The translations under genes and the position numbers were made by a program. DNA of 64,000 nt from Bacteroidales bacterium (GTDB taxonomy: Bacteria > Bacteroidota > Bacteroidia > Bacteroidales > JAIOZK01), in the NCBI GenBank assembly GCA_021740625.1, contig JAIOZK010000022.1, forward strand, positions 1 to 64,000. Reading direction: 5' to 3'. The first letter of the stretch is position 1. Every line of letters starts with the position of its first letter. Shown piece by piece: positions 35,575 through 47,870 of the stretch. The notes beneath the pieces were generated by a model. It was not told where the DNA came from, ran no database searches, and was given only the letters and a program-made list of their open reading frames with translations.

Positions 35575-36420
35575 TTATTTGTTTTGTTTAATCAGGATAT
35601 TTACAAAATCATTTTTATTTTCTAGCCGGATTAGATTGTTTTTGTTATCTAAAAAAAGCTCAATCCCTTCTCTCTTAACCAACGAAAATTTCTGCATTTC
35701 CAGCATCCGATTTTGTATGAAGCCAGTCATTGTTTTGGCTATGGCCTGGTTCGGGTATTTCAACTTTATCAGGATATCATGATCATTTTTAAATACAATG
35801 CCCTGCTTAATTTTGAAAATATCTTCACGACCAAAATAATAATGATTGTGCAGTGCAATCATGCCCCCGATCAGATAGAACTCCTCATGGGTTTTTCCTT
35901 GTTTCAGAATAACTTCTCTTATCCAGGGACTGATCGCAGAGGGCGCTTTTATTTGCTGAAGCAGGATCTCCGCAAACCACAGCATATCATTTTTGTTGGC
36001 ATTTTTTATCTTGCGGATCATAACAAAATACCGCCCCTGACGCAGAAATATATATTCTTCACCGATCCAACGGTTGCTTCCATCTGCATGCATATTGAAC
36101 TTGTTTGAAAAAAGAGAATAAATCCCAAAAGCTGCATCTGGATCTTGCATCAAATAGATTTCAACATGAATTGCCGTATCACCAGATTTTTGGTATTCCA
36201 GGGCGGCCACTTCTTCAAACCCAAACTCAAAATAAAGTTCGGCTCCACCATTGATCAGATAAAAGAGATCATCCCCGAGATAAATCGTCTTCTCATAAAG
36301 TTGCCATGATTTCAAAATGGCGCTGTCAGGTATTACTTCAGATACGGTAGTATCAGACATTGCACGGGTGGTGCCGCACAGGACTACCAGGATTAGTGAA
36401 CAAAAGAACAGTCTAATCAT
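35575..36420 (-). CDS. Secreted DUF6599-like protein
   Basis: The 281-residue protein has a signal peptide (IRLFFCSLILVVLCG). Its conserved start (LYEKTIYLGDDLFYLINGGAELYFEFGFEEV) is the hallmark of the DUF6599-type family that accompanies DUF362 proteins in Bacteroidota. The remainder is mixed alpha/beta without a known active site. Its start overlaps the DUF362 gene by eight bases, so both are translated from one transcript. The function is unknown. Confidence 0.65.
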   Translation of the reverse strand: MIRLFFCSLILVVLCGTTRAMSDTTVSEVIPDSAILKSWQLYEKTIYLGDDLFYLINGGAELYFEFGFEEVAALEYQKSGDTAIHVEIYLMQDPDAAFGIYSLFSNKFNMHADGSNRWIGEEYIFLRQGRYFVMIRKIKNANKNDMLWFAEILLQQIKAPSAISPWIREVILKQGKTHEEFYLIGGMIALHNHYYFGREDIFKIKQGIVFKNDHDILIKLKYPNQAIAKTMTGFIQNRMLEMQKFSLVKREGIELFLDNKNNLIRLENKNDFVNILIKQNK

Positions 36421-37369
36421 GGATTTCTTTGATTTTTAAAGAAGAAAGATCGGATGTTCCCAGCCCGCAGGCTTCTGCCTTTTTGATCATAACAATTTCC
36501 TCCGGCTGATATCCCAGGGTTTCCGCACCCAGGCAATCCATGGCCACCAGGTCGGTGCCTGCAAAGATTTTGTCGGCGATTTTTGTTTCTCCCGGACCCA
36601 CAGGTCCATTGGTGGTGATGAACTCTGTCCCGTCGATCAGGATCAAGTCGGGCTGGCGCAGCATGTTGATATCTGCAATACACTGCCCAAGAAAATCAGG
36701 ATCATTCCGCTTCTCCGATCCCAGGTGGTAATATACATTGTTTTCACGCGTGCCCACGCCCATCATATTTTTGAGGGCACCCGTATAGAGCGTAAGTGCA
36801 TGGTGTTTGGCAATGGAAATGCTGATGAACTTATCGCACTCCAGGATGGCTTTTGTGATTTCAACTTTTTTAAGGCATTTGGCGCCATCAATTTTATCCA
36901 GTCTGGTAAAAGTTTTGGGATTGTATTTTGATGGAAATGTATTATCTGGGTTATTGATGATTCGGGAAACATAATCTTTGTTTTCCTGGTAATGATCTCC
37001 TCTCTTCCAGTACTCAGGTTTGATGTTCTGAATACATGCTATCTGTGATGCTTCTTGTTCATAACACTCCTTCAGAACGGCCAGTACTATATCGGCATGT
37101 GGATAAGCCCCCAGGATCTCAAAATCCGAATTCACCAGCAACCCCACTTTATCGCCACTGTCAATAAACTTTTTGATCCCCCCAAGTTTCTCAATTGCCC
37201 TCAAGGTTCCGGTATAGTGGTTTTTTCCGTGATAAATACATATATCCGGCCTTCCAAACAAACCCGCTGCTTCAATACTTCTGGGAACAATCAAAGATGA
37301 AAAAAAAGCCCCTGCACCAATGAGGGAACTTTTCTGAATGAATTTTCTCCTGCTGATCTGATTTGTCAT
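36413..37369 (-). CDS. Tat-exported DUF362 protein
   Basis: The 318-residue protein has a twin-arginine signal (SRRKFIQKSSLIGAGAFFSSL). The domain resembles DUF362, with GDKVGLLVNSDF, a central SIAKHHALTLYTGALKNMMG block (typical DUF362 KxH...GALKN motif) and LILIDGTEFITTNGPVGPG. DUF362 domains often sit next to Fe-S domains, but none is present here. Tat export suggests it folds before leaving the cytoplasm, perhaps around a cofactor. It pairs with the DUF6599-like gene it overlaps. Confidence 0.78.
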   Translation of the reverse strand: MTNQISRRKFIQKSSLIGAGAFFSSLIVPRSIEAAGLFGRPDICIYHGKNHYTGTLRAIEKLGGIKKFIDSGDKVGLLVNSDFEILGAYPHADIVLAVLKECYEQEASQIACIQNIKPEYWKRGDHYQENKDYVSRIINNPDNTFPSKYNPKTFTRLDKIDGAKCLKKVEITKAILECDKFISISIAKHHALTLYTGALKNMMGVGTRENNVYYHLGSEKRNDPDFLGQCIADINMLRQPDLILIDGTEFITTNGPVGPGETKIADKIFAGTDLVAMDCLGAETLGYQPEEIVMIKKAEACGLGTSDLSSLKIKEIHD

Positions 37370-37391
37370 TTCCGTTAGCGTTAAGCAACGA

Positions 37392-37399
37392 CAAATATA
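37392..37399 (-). promoter_or_regulatory. -7 promoter element of the DUF362 operon
   Basis: Minus-strand TATATTTG is an exact TAnnTTTG match, 23 bases before the ATG at 37369. Confidence 0.55.
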
Positions 37400-37433
37400 T
37401 CCAAAAAAGGATTTATGTTAATTGATTAACACT

Positions 37434-38627
37434 TTACTTTTTACGAGCGGCATTCATATGACAATCAATTGCATATTTTATTCTACCAAGTGCCCGCTTA
37501 ATTGTTTTTCGGGGACATGCCAGGTTCATACGCATAAACCCTTCACCACCTTCTCCAAAGCTTTCCCCTTTGTTCATACCAACACCCGCTTCTTCAACAA
37601 AGAACTTCCATAACTGCTCATCATCCAACTCCATTTTCCTGCAATCCAACCAAAGCATATAGGTAGCTTCAGGCCTAATGGCTTTGATCCCGGGAATATT
37701 TTTTTCGAAGAAATCCAGAGCAAACCTAACATTTCCATCAATGTACGCTATCAATTCTTCAAGCCAGCGCTCACCTTTGGCGTAGGCAGCTTCCGAAGCC
37801 ACCGCCCCAAAAAGGTTACCCATACCCACATGCAGTTGTTCCATCAGGGTATCAAATTTCTCCTGAAGTGTTTTGTTGGATATAATGACCGAGGAAGTAG
37901 CCATACCTGCGAGATTAAATGTTTTGGATGGTGCAATGCAAGTAATGGTAATATCTGCTGCAGCTTCTGACAAAGTTGCTGTTGGTTTGTGATTGTAGCC
38001 GGGCAGTACAAGATCACAATGAATTTCATCGGATACGATCAGAATATTATAATCAAGGCATATGTTTACCATTTCGGTAAGTTCTTTTTGGGTCCATACA
38101 GATCCCCCGGGATTGTGCGGGCTGCAAAGGAACAACATTTTTGCACCCTCGGCCGCCTTTTTCCGCAGGTTATCAAAATCCATATTAAGTCTGCCTTTCT
38201 CCAATTTCAGGGGATTATTCACTTGCACCCTGCCATGATTTCTGATCGCTGAAAAGAATGGAAAATACACAGGAGGTTGCACGATGATCTTGTCACCCGG
38301 ATCCGTATATGCCATCACGCAAAAATTCAGTGCGGGCACGATTCCGGGGCTGTACCTGACCCATTCCTTTTCAATGACCCAGTTGTGATTTCTTTTCTGC
38401 CAGTTTATGATTGATCGAAAATAATCATCTGAACGAAATGAATAGCCAAATACCGGATGTTTTGCACGTTCCCTTACAGCATCCACAATGAAATCGGGTG
38501 TGGCAAAATCCATATCGGCTACCCACATGGGAATAACATCCTCCTTACCGAATATTTTTTTCCGCAAATCATATTTTACACTGTTTGTAGAAGCACGGGG
38601 AATTATCTCATCAAAATTGTAATGCAT
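37434..38627 (-). CDS. MalY/PatB-family PLP-dependent C-S lyase
   Basis: This is a fold-type I PLP enzyme of the aminotransferase class I/II MalY/PatB branch, typically a cystathionine beta-lyase. The PLP-binding Lys235 is in APSKTFNLAG, and Asp200 in IVSDEIHCDLV binds the pyridine nitrogen. The N-terminal RASTNSVKYD and PMWVADMDF motifs are characteristic of PatB. The 397 residues are full length. It lies 164 bases downstream of egtD on the same strand, which raises the possibility of a role in sulfur chemistry linked to ergothioneine-like compounds. Confidence 0.88.
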   Translation of the reverse strand: MHYNFDEIIPRASTNSVKYDLRKKIFGKEDVIPMWVADMDFATPDFIVDAVRERAKHPVFGYSFRSDDYFRSIINWQKRNHNWVIEKEWVRYSPGIVPALNFCVMAYTDPGDKIIVQPPVYFPFFSAIRNHGRVQVNNPLKLEKGRLNMDFDNLRKKAAEGAKMLFLCSPHNPGGSVWTQKELTEMVNICLDYNILIVSDEIHCDLVLPGYNHKPTATLSEAAADITITCIAPSKTFNLAGMATSSVIISNKTLQEKFDTLMEQLHVGMGNLFGAVASEAAYAKGERWLEELIAYIDGNVRFALDFFEKNIPGIKAIRPEATYMLWLDCRKMELDDEQLWKFFVEEAGVGMNKGESFGEGGEGFMRMNLACPRKTIKRALGRIKYAIDCHMNAARKK

Positions 38628-42484: not shown

Positions 42485-44083
42485 CTAAAAAAGCCTCTTC
42501 CGGATATCACCTGAAACCTTGTAATATACCCCATTTAGGATAAGCAATCCGTAAATGTTTTCATCATTCTCGTGAAAAGGGGCAGAAAGAGCAATGATCT
42601 TTTGATCAAACAACAACTGGATTTGATCGGTAATCGTATGTCCGACAATGATGTGGTTAACATGGTAGAAATTCAAAATGCTGTCGAGGCTGGTCCTGGT
42701 GATCTTTTCAAAATCCTTTCCCTTCCAGAGGTAACCCCGGTACCAGAAAGGGCCGTTCATGGAAAAAAGCGGGTCTTCATTTGCAATCTGGTAATTGTTC
42801 AGTTTGTAACGGACTTCCTTATTGATCTGCTCCACACGCAGCTTTTCTTTATAAAACACAGACGAAATTCCCCCATGCACAAAGAGGTTGTCGTTGATTA
42901 CAATCATAGAATTATGTTTTCTGAGCCACTCTCCGAGAAAAGTGTTTCTGGTAAAAAAAGCTGCATAATTCCAGCCGAAGTGATTGGCAAAGAATTGATA
43001 TTTTTTCGATTTGTATCGATCATCATTATCGAGGATCATGATCTCGTGGTTGCCCAACAGAAAATGAACCCTGCCCCCGCTTTGCCGGGCTTGTTTTTCA
43101 AGTTTATAAATCAACCATAAAGTCTCCGTCACTTTTCCTCCCCTGTCAAAAACATCCCCGTTGATCACCAGATGTCCTGCGCCAAATTGCCAGTTGCGTT
43201 TGCTGTTGATAATGTTATTCCTGGTCAGGCAATCCACGAATGAATCATAATGGCCATGCACATCATTGATGGCAAAAATCTTTTCTACACGCTCATACCT
43301 GGATTTTTGTATATCGAGTGGAAATTGAAGATCATAGGTATTGGTATCAAAAACAAACCCCCTAAAGGAAAAGCTCTTCTCATCAGCAGCAAACAAGCTG
43401 TCGATCCTGCGAACAATACTGTCGTAATTATCGTAATAAAAGTAACTCACCCGTGCCAATGAATCACTCAGGTAATCAACATATGGGCCGTCTACATAAT
43501 CATACCTGGGTGGGATCTGTTTTCGCATAAAAATGCGTGTATCCATTTCAAAACCTGTGCTTTCTTCACATTCATAAACTGCCAGTTCAACGGCATTCTT
43601 TCCGGATCTGTCCTCCAGGTAGATATTAGCACCATATTCAATGAGTATTTCAAAATCAGATGTTCTGTTCATCCATGCAGCCATCATGAGAGCCGTAACG
43701 CCCCTGTCATCCTGCGCATCCACACTGGCGCCATAATCCAGCAGCAAGCGCAAGGCAGTTGGTCTGTTGAACCTTACCGCCCACATCAGCATATTTTTAT
43801 CCCTGTAATACATATCAGGATCGGCACCAAACTCCAGTAAGTATTTAATGACTGTGGCATTGTCATAACGAATCCCCAGGTACAGAAGAGGTGTGTCAGA
43901 AGTTTTGTAATGATTGGCAAGACCTCTCTCAAGTAACGACAGGAATTTTTCATTCTGCTCTTTCCGGATGATCTTCCGGATATCCCTTTCATCAGGAAAA
44001 TTTTCCTGGCCTTGCACATTTGGTGCGATCATCAAGAAAACAATGAAGTAAAGCAGATATTTAAGCCTGTGGATGTCAATCAT
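42485..44083 (-). CDS. Secreted ankyrin-repeat / metallophosphatase fusion
   Basis: The ~532-residue protein has a signal peptide (YLLYFIVFLMIAPNVQG). About four ankyrin repeats follow (TPLLYLGIRYDNATVIKYLL, NMLMWAVRFNRPTALRLLL, VTALMMAAWMNRTSDFEILI). A C-terminal calcineurin-like phosphatase domain has NDVHGHY (usual GDxHG), NGDVFDRGG, LLGNHE, FVHGG and IVGHT, so all metal ligands are present. The predicted location is the periplasm or outer surface. The start at MIDIHRLKY is supported by an eight-base overlap with the CotH-like gene; the longer frame lacks a signal peptide. Confidence 0.82.
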   Translation of the reverse strand: MIDIHRLKYLLYFIVFLMIAPNVQGQENFPDERDIRKIIRKEQNEKFLSLLERGLANHYKTSDTPLLYLGIRYDNATVIKYLLEFGADPDMYYRDKNMLMWAVRFNRPTALRLLLDYGASVDAQDDRGVTALMMAAWMNRTSDFEILIEYGANIYLEDRSGKNAVELAVYECEESTGFEMDTRIFMRKQIPPRYDYVDGPYVDYLSDSLARVSYFYYDNYDSIVRRIDSLFAADEKSFSFRGFVFDTNTYDLQFPLDIQKSRYERVEKIFAINDVHGHYDSFVDCLTRNNIINSKRNWQFGAGHLVINGDVFDRGGKVTETLWLIYKLEKQARQSGGRVHFLLGNHEIMILDNDDRYKSKKYQFFANHFGWNYAAFFTRNTFLGEWLRKHNSMIVINDNLFVHGGISSVFYKEKLRVEQINKEVRYKLNNYQIANEDPLFSMNGPFWYRGYLWKGKDFEKITRTSLDSILNFYHVNHIIVGHTITDQIQLLFDQKIIALSAPFHENDENIYGLLILNGVYYKVSGDIRKRLF

Positions 44084-45110
44084 AACAAATCTCCTCAAAG
44101 TATCCGTCCAGAGATTCCGGGTCCTCCAGCTTATCAAACTGGGCTTTTAAAACCTCCAAAACATGTCTCTTTTGCCTGCGGTCGAGCAGATCGAAATCCT
44201 GTACCAGTTTCAATATGGAATTGCGTTTCTCAGCAATAAACTGAATTACAGAAGAGAACTCATCTAACGATTGACAATAGGATTTTATTTTGGCCATATT
44301 CCTCTCGGGATTGATGCCGGGATTTTTTGTGATGTATGATGGTTTTACCAGATATGAAAGATCAAAGTCGTAGGGAACGACAATTACCTGTGAAGTGTCT
44401 TCCTTGTTCAAAACTGTTATGTTTTTTGGCAGAAGGACCGACCAGTCGGTATTGCCGATGAGAAACTGGAATACAGAAAAAAGTTGATAATAATCCATAT
44501 TGAGTTGTTTGTAACTCAATTTCTCAATATCATCCAGGCAATGCATTTCCGTCCTTTCTGCCAACTGCTCATCTTTCTCAACAAAAAAAGCGTAACGTGT
44601 AATGTCTGGATAAACCTCCAGTATGTCATGATAACGTATACGTGCCAACCGTACCCTGTGACTGATATTGTTGATCTGGTTAAAGATTTTATAGGCAAGG
44701 TACTCACTGAAAAGATAATCCTCAGCATTGCGGTCGTTACTATTGCAGTGCGTAACAAGCTTGATCTTATCGGCTCCTTCAAAAATGCTGTTTTCGATCT
44801 GATCTTTTTCAAAGTTCACCTTGATGGGAGGAAATGGGCATACATCCGGTTTCCTTCTGAAATTGCCACGGGTCCTGAGCTTAATATCAAATTTATATTT
44901 TTTATCCGCTGCATCGGTGTATACAAGCAGGCCATTGTGATATTCCCTTTCTTCTCCTATATCTTCAGTCAGTCCCTGCATATCAATATAGATATCGATC
45001 TCAAGGACCGACTCATTTACAAACATGCTGTTATTTTGGGCATGCAGGCAGGATACCATCAAAAAGAAAAAGCCAGCAAACAAGTATTTGGGAATAATGA
45101 CAGTTTGCAT
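44076..45110 (-). CDS. CotH-kinase-like secreted protein
   Basis: The ~344-residue protein has a signal peptide (YLFAGFFFLMVSCLHAQ). Its domain resembles the CotH family: LRTRGNFRRKPDVCPFPPIKVNF near the start, SEYLAYKIFNQI, RYAFFVE, a QFLIGNTDW catalytic-loop-like segment with the following KNI, and PYDFDLS in place of the DFG-like metal motif. CotH proteins are atypical kinases that phosphorylate exported proteins. It starts four bases after the DUF4956 stop and overlaps the ankyrin-phosphatase gene. Confidence 0.7.
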   Translation of the reverse strand: MQTVIIPKYLFAGFFFLMVSCLHAQNNSMFVNESVLEIDIYIDMQGLTEDIGEEREYHNGLLVYTDAADKKYKFDIKLRTRGNFRRKPDVCPFPPIKVNFEKDQIENSIFEGADKIKLVTHCNSNDRNAEDYLFSEYLAYKIFNQINNISHRVRLARIRYHDILEVYPDITRYAFFVEKDEQLAERTEMHCLDDIEKLSYKQLNMDYYQLFSVFQFLIGNTDWSVLLPKNITVLNKEDTSQVIVVPYDFDLSYLVKPSYITKNPGINPERNMAKIKSYCQSLDEFSSVIQFIAEKRNSILKLVQDFDLLDRRQKRHVLEVLKAQFDKLEDPESLDGYFEEICYD

Positions 45111-45114
45111 TTCT

Positions 45115-45777
45115 TTACAATTGGGAATCTTTGTCAAGCGCTTTTTCAGTGTAGAACTGGGATGCAGTTTCATCATCAAAATAATAGATTGTTACCTCAG
45201 CGGTGTTCCGGTAAAAATTAATTTCTCCAACCTCCACCCTTCTGATCTTAAGCCCCGTCCGTTTTTCCATATCTTCCAGGAACAATTGCTCATTCTCAGG
45301 TTTCAGCAATTCCAGTTTATCATACACCAGCTTTTTGCTCGATTCATGCTTGAACATCCAGAAAAACTCACCTGCCTTGGTAATGGCGATCACAAAAACA
45401 TTGGTGATGATCAACTCAGCGTAGCTGATGTTTTCGTTGGTAAGTGCATTGATGATGGAAATACCGATGATCACGAAAAGATAGGTCATCTCCTTGATGG
45501 GAATGGTGCTGGTCCGGTATCGTATGATACCGAAAATCGCGAATAAACCCAGGGCAAAGCCCAGTTCCAGAGTGACATTCTCCAGCAGGTATGCCAGCAG
45601 GAAAACTGTAGTACTGATCAGGATATAGGTGAACAAGTAATCCTTCCGCTGAGCTGCCTGATAATATATGTAGCGCACAATGATAATGATCACAAGGAAA
45701 TTGAAGGCAAAGCGGAACAACAACTCCAAAAAATTATCCTGGTTCAGAAAGGCAATATCGAACAATGATAATATCAT
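45115..45777 (-). CDS. DUF4956 membrane protein
   Basis: The 220-residue protein has four or five TM segments and the family core LGLFAIFGIIRYRT...IPIKEMTYLFVIIG. A cytosolic C-terminal alpha/beta domain follows (LKIRRVEVGEINFYRNTAEVTIYYFDD). DUF4956 genes are commonly found with CotH-like and VTC-type polyphosphate polymerase genes. Here the CotH-like gene follows by four bases, but no VTC gene is present. It is the first gene of the operon. Confidence 0.82.
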   Translation of the reverse strand: MILSLFDIAFLNQDNFLELLFRFAFNFLVIIIIVRYIYYQAAQRKDYLFTYILISTTVFLLAYLLENVTLELGFALGLFAIFGIIRYRTSTIPIKEMTYLFVIIGISIINALTNENISYAELIITNVFVIAITKAGEFFWMFKHESSKKLVYDKLELLKPENEQLFLEDMEKRTGLKIRRVEVGEINFYRNTAEVTIYYFDDETASQFYTEKALDKDSQL

Positions 45778-45998: not shown

Positions 45999-47870
45999 TC
46001 ATTGATCCATATACTGCTTAAACACCATTTGTAAAAAAGCTTTTCCTTCCCGTATGATCTTTTGCTGATACAGGCTGTCGGGAATATCCTTTGTATAAAA
46101 ATGATTGATCTTCTTGTCCCAGAAAAAACTTGCATTTGGCCGAATCCAGCCAATTCCCTCTTCAAAAGCAACATAGGCAAACTCCGGTGTTTCTGGACTT
46201 AAGAGGTTTTTGCTCCATTGAAAAGGAAAGTCACTCAATTGAAGCTGACTGAACAATGTTGAAACAATGTCTACCTGGGAACCCAGTTTGCCGACCTTCA
46301 CATCCCGGTATTCGGGCTTGATTACATTGCCAAAAAACAAGAGGGGAATGTGGTGGTATTCTTTCGAATGATAACCCCAGTTATAGTATGCATGATGACT
46401 GTGATCGGCCACAATAATAAAAAGCGTGGAATCGTACCAGGACTTTGATTTCGCCTGTTGAATATATGCATAAAGACAACTGTCGGTGTACCAGGCCGAA
46501 TTCAGATACATATTCACATGCCCACCCCAATCCACTTTCAGTTCAGGCAAAGGCATATCAAAGGGAGAATGGGTACTCATCGTAAAAACAGATGAGAAAA
46601 AGGGTTGGGGATCATTGCTGACTTCTTCCAGTTGCCGTTCGAAAACAAATTCATCATGCACGCCCAGCTTGCCCTGCGGAACATCATCATCAAAATCACT
46701 GATCTCGATGATCCTGTCGAAACCATTGTACATGATATAGCTTTTTATATTTCCATAGATCAATTGCCCACCAAAATAAAAGGATGTGGAATAGCCTTCT
46801 TCTTCAAGCTTGCCTGTCAGGGTTGGCAATCCCTGGAATTTATCCGGTTGCACCGTGATGGAAGATATGGGATGTGCCGGGAATCCGCTGAAGATAGAAG
46901 CCATACCTTGTTCGGAGCGGGTTCCTGCAGAATATATATTTGTAAAAAGAATGCCATTCTTTTCCAGTTTTCTGAATCCCGGGGTGATGCCGGGCTTTCC
47001 ACCCAGGGATTCTATCAGATCGGCCGACCAGCTTTCCAGCATGATCAGAACGATATTGGGCCTGGTAGTAGCCAGGACCTGGAGGGTAGAATCTCCCCGG
47101 GGCTCATAGATCCTTTCCACGATCTCAATGGCTTCATCTTGGGGAAATGATAGAAAGGGATTTTTTCCTTTAAGACTCCAGTTCTCATAAAGACTCACGA
47201 AAATATTAAAACCGGAATTCATGCTTGCCAGGTTGAGTATCTGGTGTTCCGAATAATAGGATTGACTCTGGTTGATCGGGATCTCCTGCAGACCTCCCCT
47301 GCCACCGATGATCCCAAGGACAGGGAAAATGATCAGATATACGGCGGTAAAGAAATAATTGCGCTTTACAATCCTGACCTGCGTAAAAAACAGCCTTCTG
47401 AATATCCAATAAGCCAGCAGAGTTTGGGCAAATAAAATGACAAGCAATACAAAAAAGGTAGCAGTTTCGGCAGACTCATAAATTTCTGCCGGATGCGTCA
47501 GGTACATCAGCGCTTTATAATGCAGCTTGGTTTTCCATTCGGAATAGATTCCCAGCTCTGCTGTTGTGAGCAATGAATAAACAATGATGACCAGCAGCAC
47601 ATAATACTTTACGATCTTATTCCAGAAATTCCCCCTGAAAAGGCTCATCAGCAAATAAACCAGGAATGGGAATCCGATCAGGTAAAGCGCAGTTGACACA
47701 TCCAGTTCAAAGCCATGGTAAAAAGACTGCATGCTTTCCCAGAACCCGATACCTTCCATGCGGATATACCTGAGATTATAAAGCAGGTATATGCTCCTGG
47801 TAAAGGCAAAAAATACAATCCAGAAAATGAACTGCAGCACAAGCGCCCTGATGATCCTGAGTTTATCCAT
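45999..47870 (-). CDS. LTA-synthase-family membrane phosphotransferase/sulfatase-like protein
   Basis: The 623-residue protein has five N-terminal TM helices and a large extracytoplasmic alkaline-phosphatase-fold domain. Metal and catalytic residues are visible: IVLIMLES (Glu279), SAGTRSEQG (nucleophile Thr317) and VADHSHHAYY. LtaS enzymes polymerise glycerol phosphate. In Gram-negative Bacteroidota such proteins are more likely to transfer phospho-head groups such as phosphoglycerol or phosphoethanolamine to glycans or lipids. It lies 221 bases upstream of the DUF4956 operon on the same strand. Confidence 0.85.
   Translation of the reverse strand: MDKLRIIRALVLQFIFWIVFFAFTRSIYLLYNLRYIRMEGIGFWESMQSFYHGFELDVSTALYLIGFPFLVYLLMSLFRGNFWNKIVKYYVLLVIIVYSLLTTAELGIYSEWKTKLHYKALMYLTHPAEIYESAETATFFVLLVILFAQTLLAYWIFRRLFFTQVRIVKRNYFFTAVYLIIFPVLGIIGGRGGLQEIPINQSQSYYSEHQILNLASMNSGFNIFVSLYENWSLKGKNPFLSFPQDEAIEIVERIYEPRGDSTLQVLATTRPNIVLIMLESWSADLIESLGGKPGITPGFRKLEKNGILFTNIYSAGTRSEQGMASIFSGFPAHPISSITVQPDKFQGLPTLTGKLEEEGYSTSFYFGGQLIYGNIKSYIMYNGFDRIIEISDFDDDVPQGKLGVHDEFVFERQLEEVSNDPQPFFSSVFTMSTHSPFDMPLPELKVDWGGHVNMYLNSAWYTDSCLYAYIQQAKSKSWYDSTLFIIVADHSHHAYYNWGYHSKEYHHIPLLFFGNVIKPEYRDVKVGKLGSQVDIVSTLFSQLQLSDFPFQWSKNLLSPETPEFAYVAFEEGIGWIRPNASFFWDKKINHFYTKDIPDSLYQQKIIREGKAFLQMVFKQYMDQ

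Follow-up and report, generated by a model that had tools for sequence, protein, structure and literature searches.

The 64,000-nucleotide stretch analyzed here (hereinafter the window) spans positions 1 to 64,000 of contig JAIOZK010000022.1 from a Bacteroidales bacterium (GenBank assembly GCA_021740625.1), whose 4.0 Mb genome, distributed over 52 contigs, is rated 95% complete. ORF (open reading frame) calls in the window delineate three minus-strand genes arranged head to tail, coding successively for a DUF4956 membrane protein, a CotH-like kinase, and a fusion of ankyrin repeats to a PPP-family phosphatase (Table 1). The first two genes are separated by a 4-base gap (45111-45114), and the ORFs of the latter two overlap by 8 bases (44076-44083). 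An earlier note on this DNA had described precisely such a trio, with this spacing and without an accompanying VTC polymerase; the ORFs and Pfam searches bear out the former, and the latter extends to the rest of the genome, in which no match to VTC (PF09359) was obtained. Genome-wide, both DUF4956 and the trio-type CotH are represented by a single match each.

Table 1. Genes and domains of the DUF4956-CotH-phosphatase trio in the window.
Feature	Coordinates	Strand	Basis
DUF4956 membrane protein, 220 aa	45115..45777	-	Pfam PF16316, structure model, loop charges
CotH-like kinase, 344 aa, export-like N-terminus	44076..45110	-	ATG 45110, stop ending 44076; Pfam PF08757, structure model
Fusion of ankyrin repeats with a Shewanella-like PPP phosphatase (Shelph), 532 aa, N-terminus export-like	42485..44083	-	ATG 44083; Pfam Ank_2, Metallophos; solved relatives
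Ankyrin repeat core, residues 71-158 (best Ank_2 stretch)	43610..43873	-	repeat matches span ~59-171
PPP metallophosphatase domain, residues 268-483	42635..43282	-	motifs NDVHG, GDVFDRG, GNHE, HGGIS, GHT

The CotH-like protein scores narrowly above the cut-off of the Pfam CotH model (PF08757; 31.0 versus 23.8 bits). A structure model built from 66 sequences (mean pLDDT, the predicted local distance difference test score, 88.4) recovered as its best solved matches the two Bacillus cereus CotH structures (5jd9: Z 20.5, root-mean-square deviation 3.0 over 268 aligned residues, Foldseek E 2.7e-10; 5jda: Z 20.1), followed by the HipT, CtkA, and PI4K families at Z ~12.5. Seven kinase residues (K117, E136, E178, D222, N230, D248, and D250) are identical in all 66 sequences; as 65 of these were retrieved by a pattern fixing F214, I218, N220, and D222, the invariance of the latter four positions within this set is built in, and the full set of seven is likewise conserved without exception in the 17 sequences (alignment A1) found with the whole protein. 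In the model, K117 lies on a strand and E136 on the helix that follows; helix 205-217 leads into a loop that carries D222 and N230 and then into a strand pair, with D248 directly after a strand. From motif and fold, D222 and D248 are likely the counterparts of D228 and D251 of Bacillus subtilis CotH, whose D228Q and D251A mutants are described as inactive (PMC7821199). Given the conservation of the kinase residues, we ruled out a degenerate (pseudo)kinase at the residue level.

This CotH subfamily is divergent: PF08757 at E 0.01 picks up only 13 of its 66 members, a six-frame search of the window genome with that model misses the trio gene, and an hhalign comparison of the subfamily with canonical CotH is in register at the kinase motifs but weak (E 0.062). 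The window protein used alone as a query against the genome contigs recovered no relative, and PDB sequence searches with the alignments A1 and A3 returned no CotH. Within a sample of 60 genomes from the order (one per family, except for G001, which belongs to the same genus as the window; G000 denotes the window genome itself), canonical CotH genes occur in 33 and were not found in the window genome or G001. Cys91 and Cys122 are invariant among the relatives and would suit an exported protein. Judged from hydropathy, a hydrophobic export-like segment precedes the kinase domain in 73 of the 79 CotH ORFs that do not start at the edge of their locus; of the other six, five show weaker signals by eye, and one (L107, discussed below) has the signal at its own N-terminus. 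The long CotH ORFs of L061 (without a Pfam domain) and L099 (not scanned by Pfam) look like over-long frames.

The third gene combines an ankyrin region (Ank_2, 105.9 bits) with a metallophosphatase domain (Metallophos, 56.8 bits). Over its catalytic part (residues 258-503) the protein matches the Shewanella cold-active phosphatase (2z72; E 2.7e-59), and the three top solved chains (2z72, 1v73, and 2zbm), all aligned across the phosphatase part, are of this Shewanella-type enzyme. We accordingly call it a Shelph, an assignment made from the best solved chains. An ApaH-type identity was rejected, with the NCBIfam model at 38 bits (cut-off 176). All five PPP metal-site motifs are present in the window protein; over the 25 Shelphs that we compiled, the GDxHG-type motif is found in 22, GDxxDRG in 25, GNHE in 24, HxGxS in 21, and GHT in 20; some of the relatives may thus carry altered sites. 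By eye, uncut Shelphs begin with export-like segments irrespective of whether they carry ankyrin repeats. A possible second context for the ankyrin-Shelph is offered by L117 (1464-7455) and L021 (3603-9375), where it lies downstream of genes that by eye resemble ABC permeases and ATPases and of a gene whose 390-aa product matches no Pfam model.

We examined the neighborhoods of 80 related CotH loci from Bacteroidota (designated by L; G001 and G047 of the order sample are apparently the same records as L033 and L096, respectively). A Shelph occurs within two genes of CotH in 16 of these, plus L096 in which the gene is cut by the contig end, and does so in several gene orders. The arrangement of the window, DUF4956-CotH-ankyrin-Shelph, recurs in G001, G021, L040, and L074; three Marinifilaceae loci (L053, L064, and L088) show the order Shelph-DUF4956-CotH, which is present in records of Labilibaculum and Ancylomarina; and CotH stands beside Shelph with no adjoining DUF4956 in L036, L038, L044, L055, L057, L075, L077, L085, L089, and L110, as it does in the cut L096. 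In four of these (L044, L057, L077, and L085) the CotH and Shelph genes are divergently oriented. CotH also adjoins an ankyrin-Shelph in G015 and G025. The ORFs lying no more than two genes from CotH number 291 and include all 16 Shelphs, as against none among the 487 ORFs further out. Clustering of all near neighbors, with no families preselected, ranked the ankyrin/Shelph group first (19/80 loci, including the cut L096 and the ankyrin-only L045 and L109) and recovered DUF4956 at 11 of the 80. The intermediate ranks are mostly due to Pontibacter loci, whose neighbors include an ABC ATPase (by eye) and a sulfatase-like protein; we discounted these as partners, since their recurrence mostly reflects the shared synteny of a single genus. 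L043 has genes with metallophosphatase motifs next to CotH, which differ in type and did not enter the Shelph count. On a quick CotH tree of 72 rows, the distribution of pairing requires no fewer than 11 changes, 3 of which are forced by starred branches, versus a mean of 18.8 when shuffled; even 11 may be too many, as rows cut at contig ends were scored as unpaired.

In L107 (Flammeovirgaceae; 257-2077), one export-type chain of 606 aa carries a secreted metallophosphatase (Metallophos, 48.3 bits; the purple-acid C-terminal model is below its cut-off), which is not of the Shelph type, together with a CotH-fold kinase, and we read it as a real kinase-phosphatase fusion. PMC8220851 mentions a Phycomyces protein in which a CotH domain accompanies a fungal ApaH-like PPP phosphatase; we take L107 and the fungal protein as separate joinings of kinase and phosphatase activities. 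L045 (885-2336) and L109 (5116-6558) code for export-like, ankyrin-only proteins of ~480 aa, divergently oriented from CotH and without a phosphatase domain; the ankyrin region could have a bearing on the kinase itself. We also observed two closely spaced CotH-family genes in L070 (5563-7978), L083 (2685-4790), L111 (5322-7978), and L029 (11426-15173), the last with an ankyrin-Shelph between them.

The association of CotH with Shelph is seen in the order sample too. The trio-type CotH is present in 11 of the 60 genomes and Shelph in 9, all within those 11; thus, Shelph occurs in 9/11 genomes with CotH and 0/49 without (Fisher p=3.7e-9; p=1.2e-7 after dropping G001 and G047; both uncorrected for descent). 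G047 was counted as having a Shelph from its ankyrin part because the contig ends inside the gene, and the weak catalytic-domain matches of G028 and G030 (E ~1e-11) were left out of the count. From the co-occurrence, the positions, and the tree, we rule out chance neighbors for the order and for the 80 loci, though not class-wide.

The first gene is a clear member of DUF4956 (PF16316; 170.7 bits, cut-off 30.6). Its structure model (pLDDT 76.3) has five long helices (residues 13-143) and a C-terminal α/β domain (~144-213), which is predicted to be cytoplasmic from the positive-inside charges of the loops. Foldseek searches with this model returned no solved relative at E 1e-3 and none with a Z of at least 8, a result that does not by itself show a new fold. 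All 12 DUF4956 sequences compared share three arginines, R22, R86, and R88; as the channel of yeast VTC is described as lined by basic residues (PMC9911596), an anion path through DUF4956 is conceivable by analogy, and no more. DUF4956 occurs in 32 genomes of the order sample and VTC in 27, and in all 27 VTC is on the same contig, directly beside DUF4956; the coordinates place a canonical CotH within ~2.5 kb in nine of these (G005, G008, G027, G028, G033, G040, G046, G051, and G055). The order yields 35 DUF4956 matches above cut-off, 27 of them with VTC alongside. The eight matches without it comprise four that adjoin the trio-type CotH (G000, G001, G021, and G008:C56), one that adjoins a canonical CotH (G017), and three with neither neighbor in the contig sequence at hand (G010, G046:C130, and G015:C344). 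Thus, G000, G001, and G021 combine DUF4956, CotH, and Shelph, and VTC was not found in these genomes. L040 ties the VTC-type and Shelph-type loci together, as it carries VTC, DUF4956, CotH, and ankyrin-Shelph consecutively. The window genome does possess PPK1.

The most likely reading of the trio, which we hold with little better than even confidence, is that of an operon for reversible extracytoplasmic phosphorylation, in which a writer-eraser pair acts with a membrane partner. It builds directly on the gene order, the predicted fold, the residues, the linkage, and the co-occurrence within the order; from these we infer export, activity, a common substrate, and the roles of the ankyrin and DUF4956 parts. 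Under this proposal, the CotH-like protein, with its modeled kinase fold and aligned residues, would be exported and move phosphate onto one or more envelope proteins. The ankyrin-Shelph, which displays the metal-site motifs and the linkage, would be targeted to the same side and strip the phosphate, with its ankyrin repeats possibly holding either the substrate or the kinase. DUF4956 might connect the two enzymes with the cytoplasm, as a regulator of the pair or as a conduit through which some phosphate-bearing compound moves outward, and this is the weakest step. The earlier note had named two findings that would refute its proposal, namely a CotH-like protein devoid of kinase residues in a structural model and a gene order unique to this genome; instead, the fold is matched at Z 20.5 with the residues present, and the order recurs in other lineages (G021, L040, and L074). 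Its central proposal of a kinase-phosphatase envelope module stands in part: the fold, residues, motifs, export-like N-termini, failure to find VTC, and recurrent linkage support it, and the many kinase relatives without a phosphatase and the differing prototype specificities do not.

Several observations weigh against this proposal, especially in the form of a strict pair. ATP is scarce outside the cytoplasm. No Shelph is seen at 63 of the 80 CotH loci, 48 of which have at least 1.5 kb on both sides (the remaining 15 have shorter flanks or, like L080, yielded no CotH ORF), and in G044, G018, and G007 the Shelph and CotH are on different contigs. Among 149 genomes sampled class-wide, CotH occurs in 9 and a Shelph with a catalytic part in 2 (the window genome and G125), that is, in 1/9 genomes with CotH (the window's own) and 1/140 without (G125; p=0.12). 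The CotH-Shelph link is thus not a general one, being weak class-wide but tight within the order and in some scattered lineages besides; strict pairing is also disfavored by the large number of CotH loci and CotH genomes in which no Shelph is seen, and by the Shelphs situated away from CotH. Finally, the prototypes differ in specificity, the Shewanella phosphatase being described as Tyr-specific (PMC535813) and B. subtilis CotH as a Ser/Thr kinase (PMC7821199), a mismatch that also speaks against a strict pair.

These same absences speak for a reading of the trio as operon mates without a shared substrate and of the phosphatase as a general phosphate scavenger, given the 63/80 CotH loci and 8/9 class-wide CotH genomes that have no Shelph and the Shelphs found away from CotH; we nevertheless consider this very improbable in view of the co-occurrence in the order, the varied gene orders, the divergent pairs, and the kinase-phosphatase fusions. 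Alternatively, the pair might act on a non-protein component of the envelope, such as a glycan, lipid, or teichoic-like polymer, which the CotH-fold enzyme would phosphorylate and the Shelph would trim. In Gram-positives, genes for CotH, the polyphosphate polymerase, and DUF4956 are described as adjoining Pel exopolysaccharide clusters (PMC7112168), a sulfatase-family membrane protein (45999-47870) adjoins the operon in the window, and lipid kinases share the fold. Yet the protein kinase CotH provides the closest fold (Z 20.5; lipid kinases, ~12), the phosphatase is a member of the PPP family of protein phosphatases, and by eye a same-genus relative has no sulfatase-type gene beside its operon, leaving this alternative unlikely in our estimate.

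The ties to VTC raise the prospect of polyphosphate traffic, whereby DUF4956 would export polyphosphate or another donor, the CotH-like enzyme would use it, and the phosphatase would recover phosphate. The invariable adjacency of VTC and DUF4956 in the 27 VTC-bearing genomes, the four-gene row of L040, the PPK1 of the window genome, the invariant R22/R86/R88 (12/12), and the basic-lined channel of yeast VTC (PMC9911596) are all consistent with it. Against this, VTC was not found in G000, G001, and G021, which retain the trio, and transport by DUF4956, a protein without a solved fold relative at E 1e-3, is conjectural; on balance, we deem such traffic quite unlikely. A more specific version of the reversible-phosphorylation reading would be a self-contained switch, with an exported kinase and dedicated phosphatase acting on envelope proteins, DUF4956 as the route of a donor (polyphosphate or nucleotide) across the inner membrane, and another polyphosphate source replacing VTC; as a complete scheme, it appears to us decidedly unlikely.

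With respect to the genomic surroundings, the sulfatase-family gene (45999-47870, minus strand) lies ~220 bases upstream of DUF4956; its product has an N-terminal membrane part by eye, and we take it to resemble phosphoglycerol transferases. The same-genus relative has an ACP (acyl carrier protein)-synthase-III-type gene in its place. Downstream of the operon, the window has a BlaI/M56-peptidase pair. Genes for a PLP (pyridoxal phosphate) enzyme and a DUF362 protein are found downstream of the operon in both the window (36413-38627) and the same-genus relative (L019 12062-14292); the BlaI, M56 peptidase, and histidine-methyltransferase genes intervene only in the window. The last of these, a histidine-specific SAM (S-adenosylmethionine) methyltransferase (PF10017; 38792-39763, minus strand), adjoins the PLP aminotransferase-family gene (37434-38627, minus strand); it is presumably of the EgtD type and, with that neighbor, could belong to an ergothioneine- or ovothiol-like synthesis.

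Extracytoplasmic protein phosphorylation is known from animal secretory pathways and from Bacillus spore coats. If our favored reading of the trio as a writer-eraser operon is true, a kinase accompanied by an exported phosphatase of its own would constitute a reversible switch in the Gram-negative envelope, and it would offer a testable handle both on DUF4956, whose very name marks the function of the family as unknown, and on the supply of donor to an extracytoplasmic kinase. Among the matches listed for the open-access literature, we found no description of a CotH-Shelph pair; the text of PMC8250860, on a CotH domain protein, has neither DUF4956 nor VTC. Loci combining CotH, the polyphosphate polymerase, and DUF4956 beside Pel clusters are already known (PMC7112168), and the trio is a variant of these on a divergent CotH subfamily: as in those loci, DUF4956 adjoins a CotH-type gene, and L040 carries all four genes, whereas in the window genome VTC was not found, the CotH is of another subfamily, and an ankyrin-Shelph is added. 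The kinase itself resembles the CotH spore-coat kinase of Bacillus (PF08757; 5jd9 and 5jda) in its fold, RGN motif, and the positions of the catalytic and metal-site aspartates, but comes from a divergent subfamily with invariant cysteines and often lies beside a phosphatase gene. Similarly, the catalytic domain of the phosphatase (E 2.7e-59) and its metal-site motifs are those of the Shewanella-like PPP enzyme (2z72/1v73; PMC535813), from which the window Shelph differs in its fused ankyrin repeats and in its linkage with a kinase gene. The B. subtilis CotB/CotG/CotH module (PMC7821199) likewise places a CotH-fold kinase in a conserved cluster; however, it groups the kinase with its substrates, whereas the window trio links it to a phosphatase instead. 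The Phycomyces protein mentioned in PMC8220851 also joins a CotH domain to a PPP-family phosphatase, but does so with another PPP group, in a single chain, and in a eukaryote.

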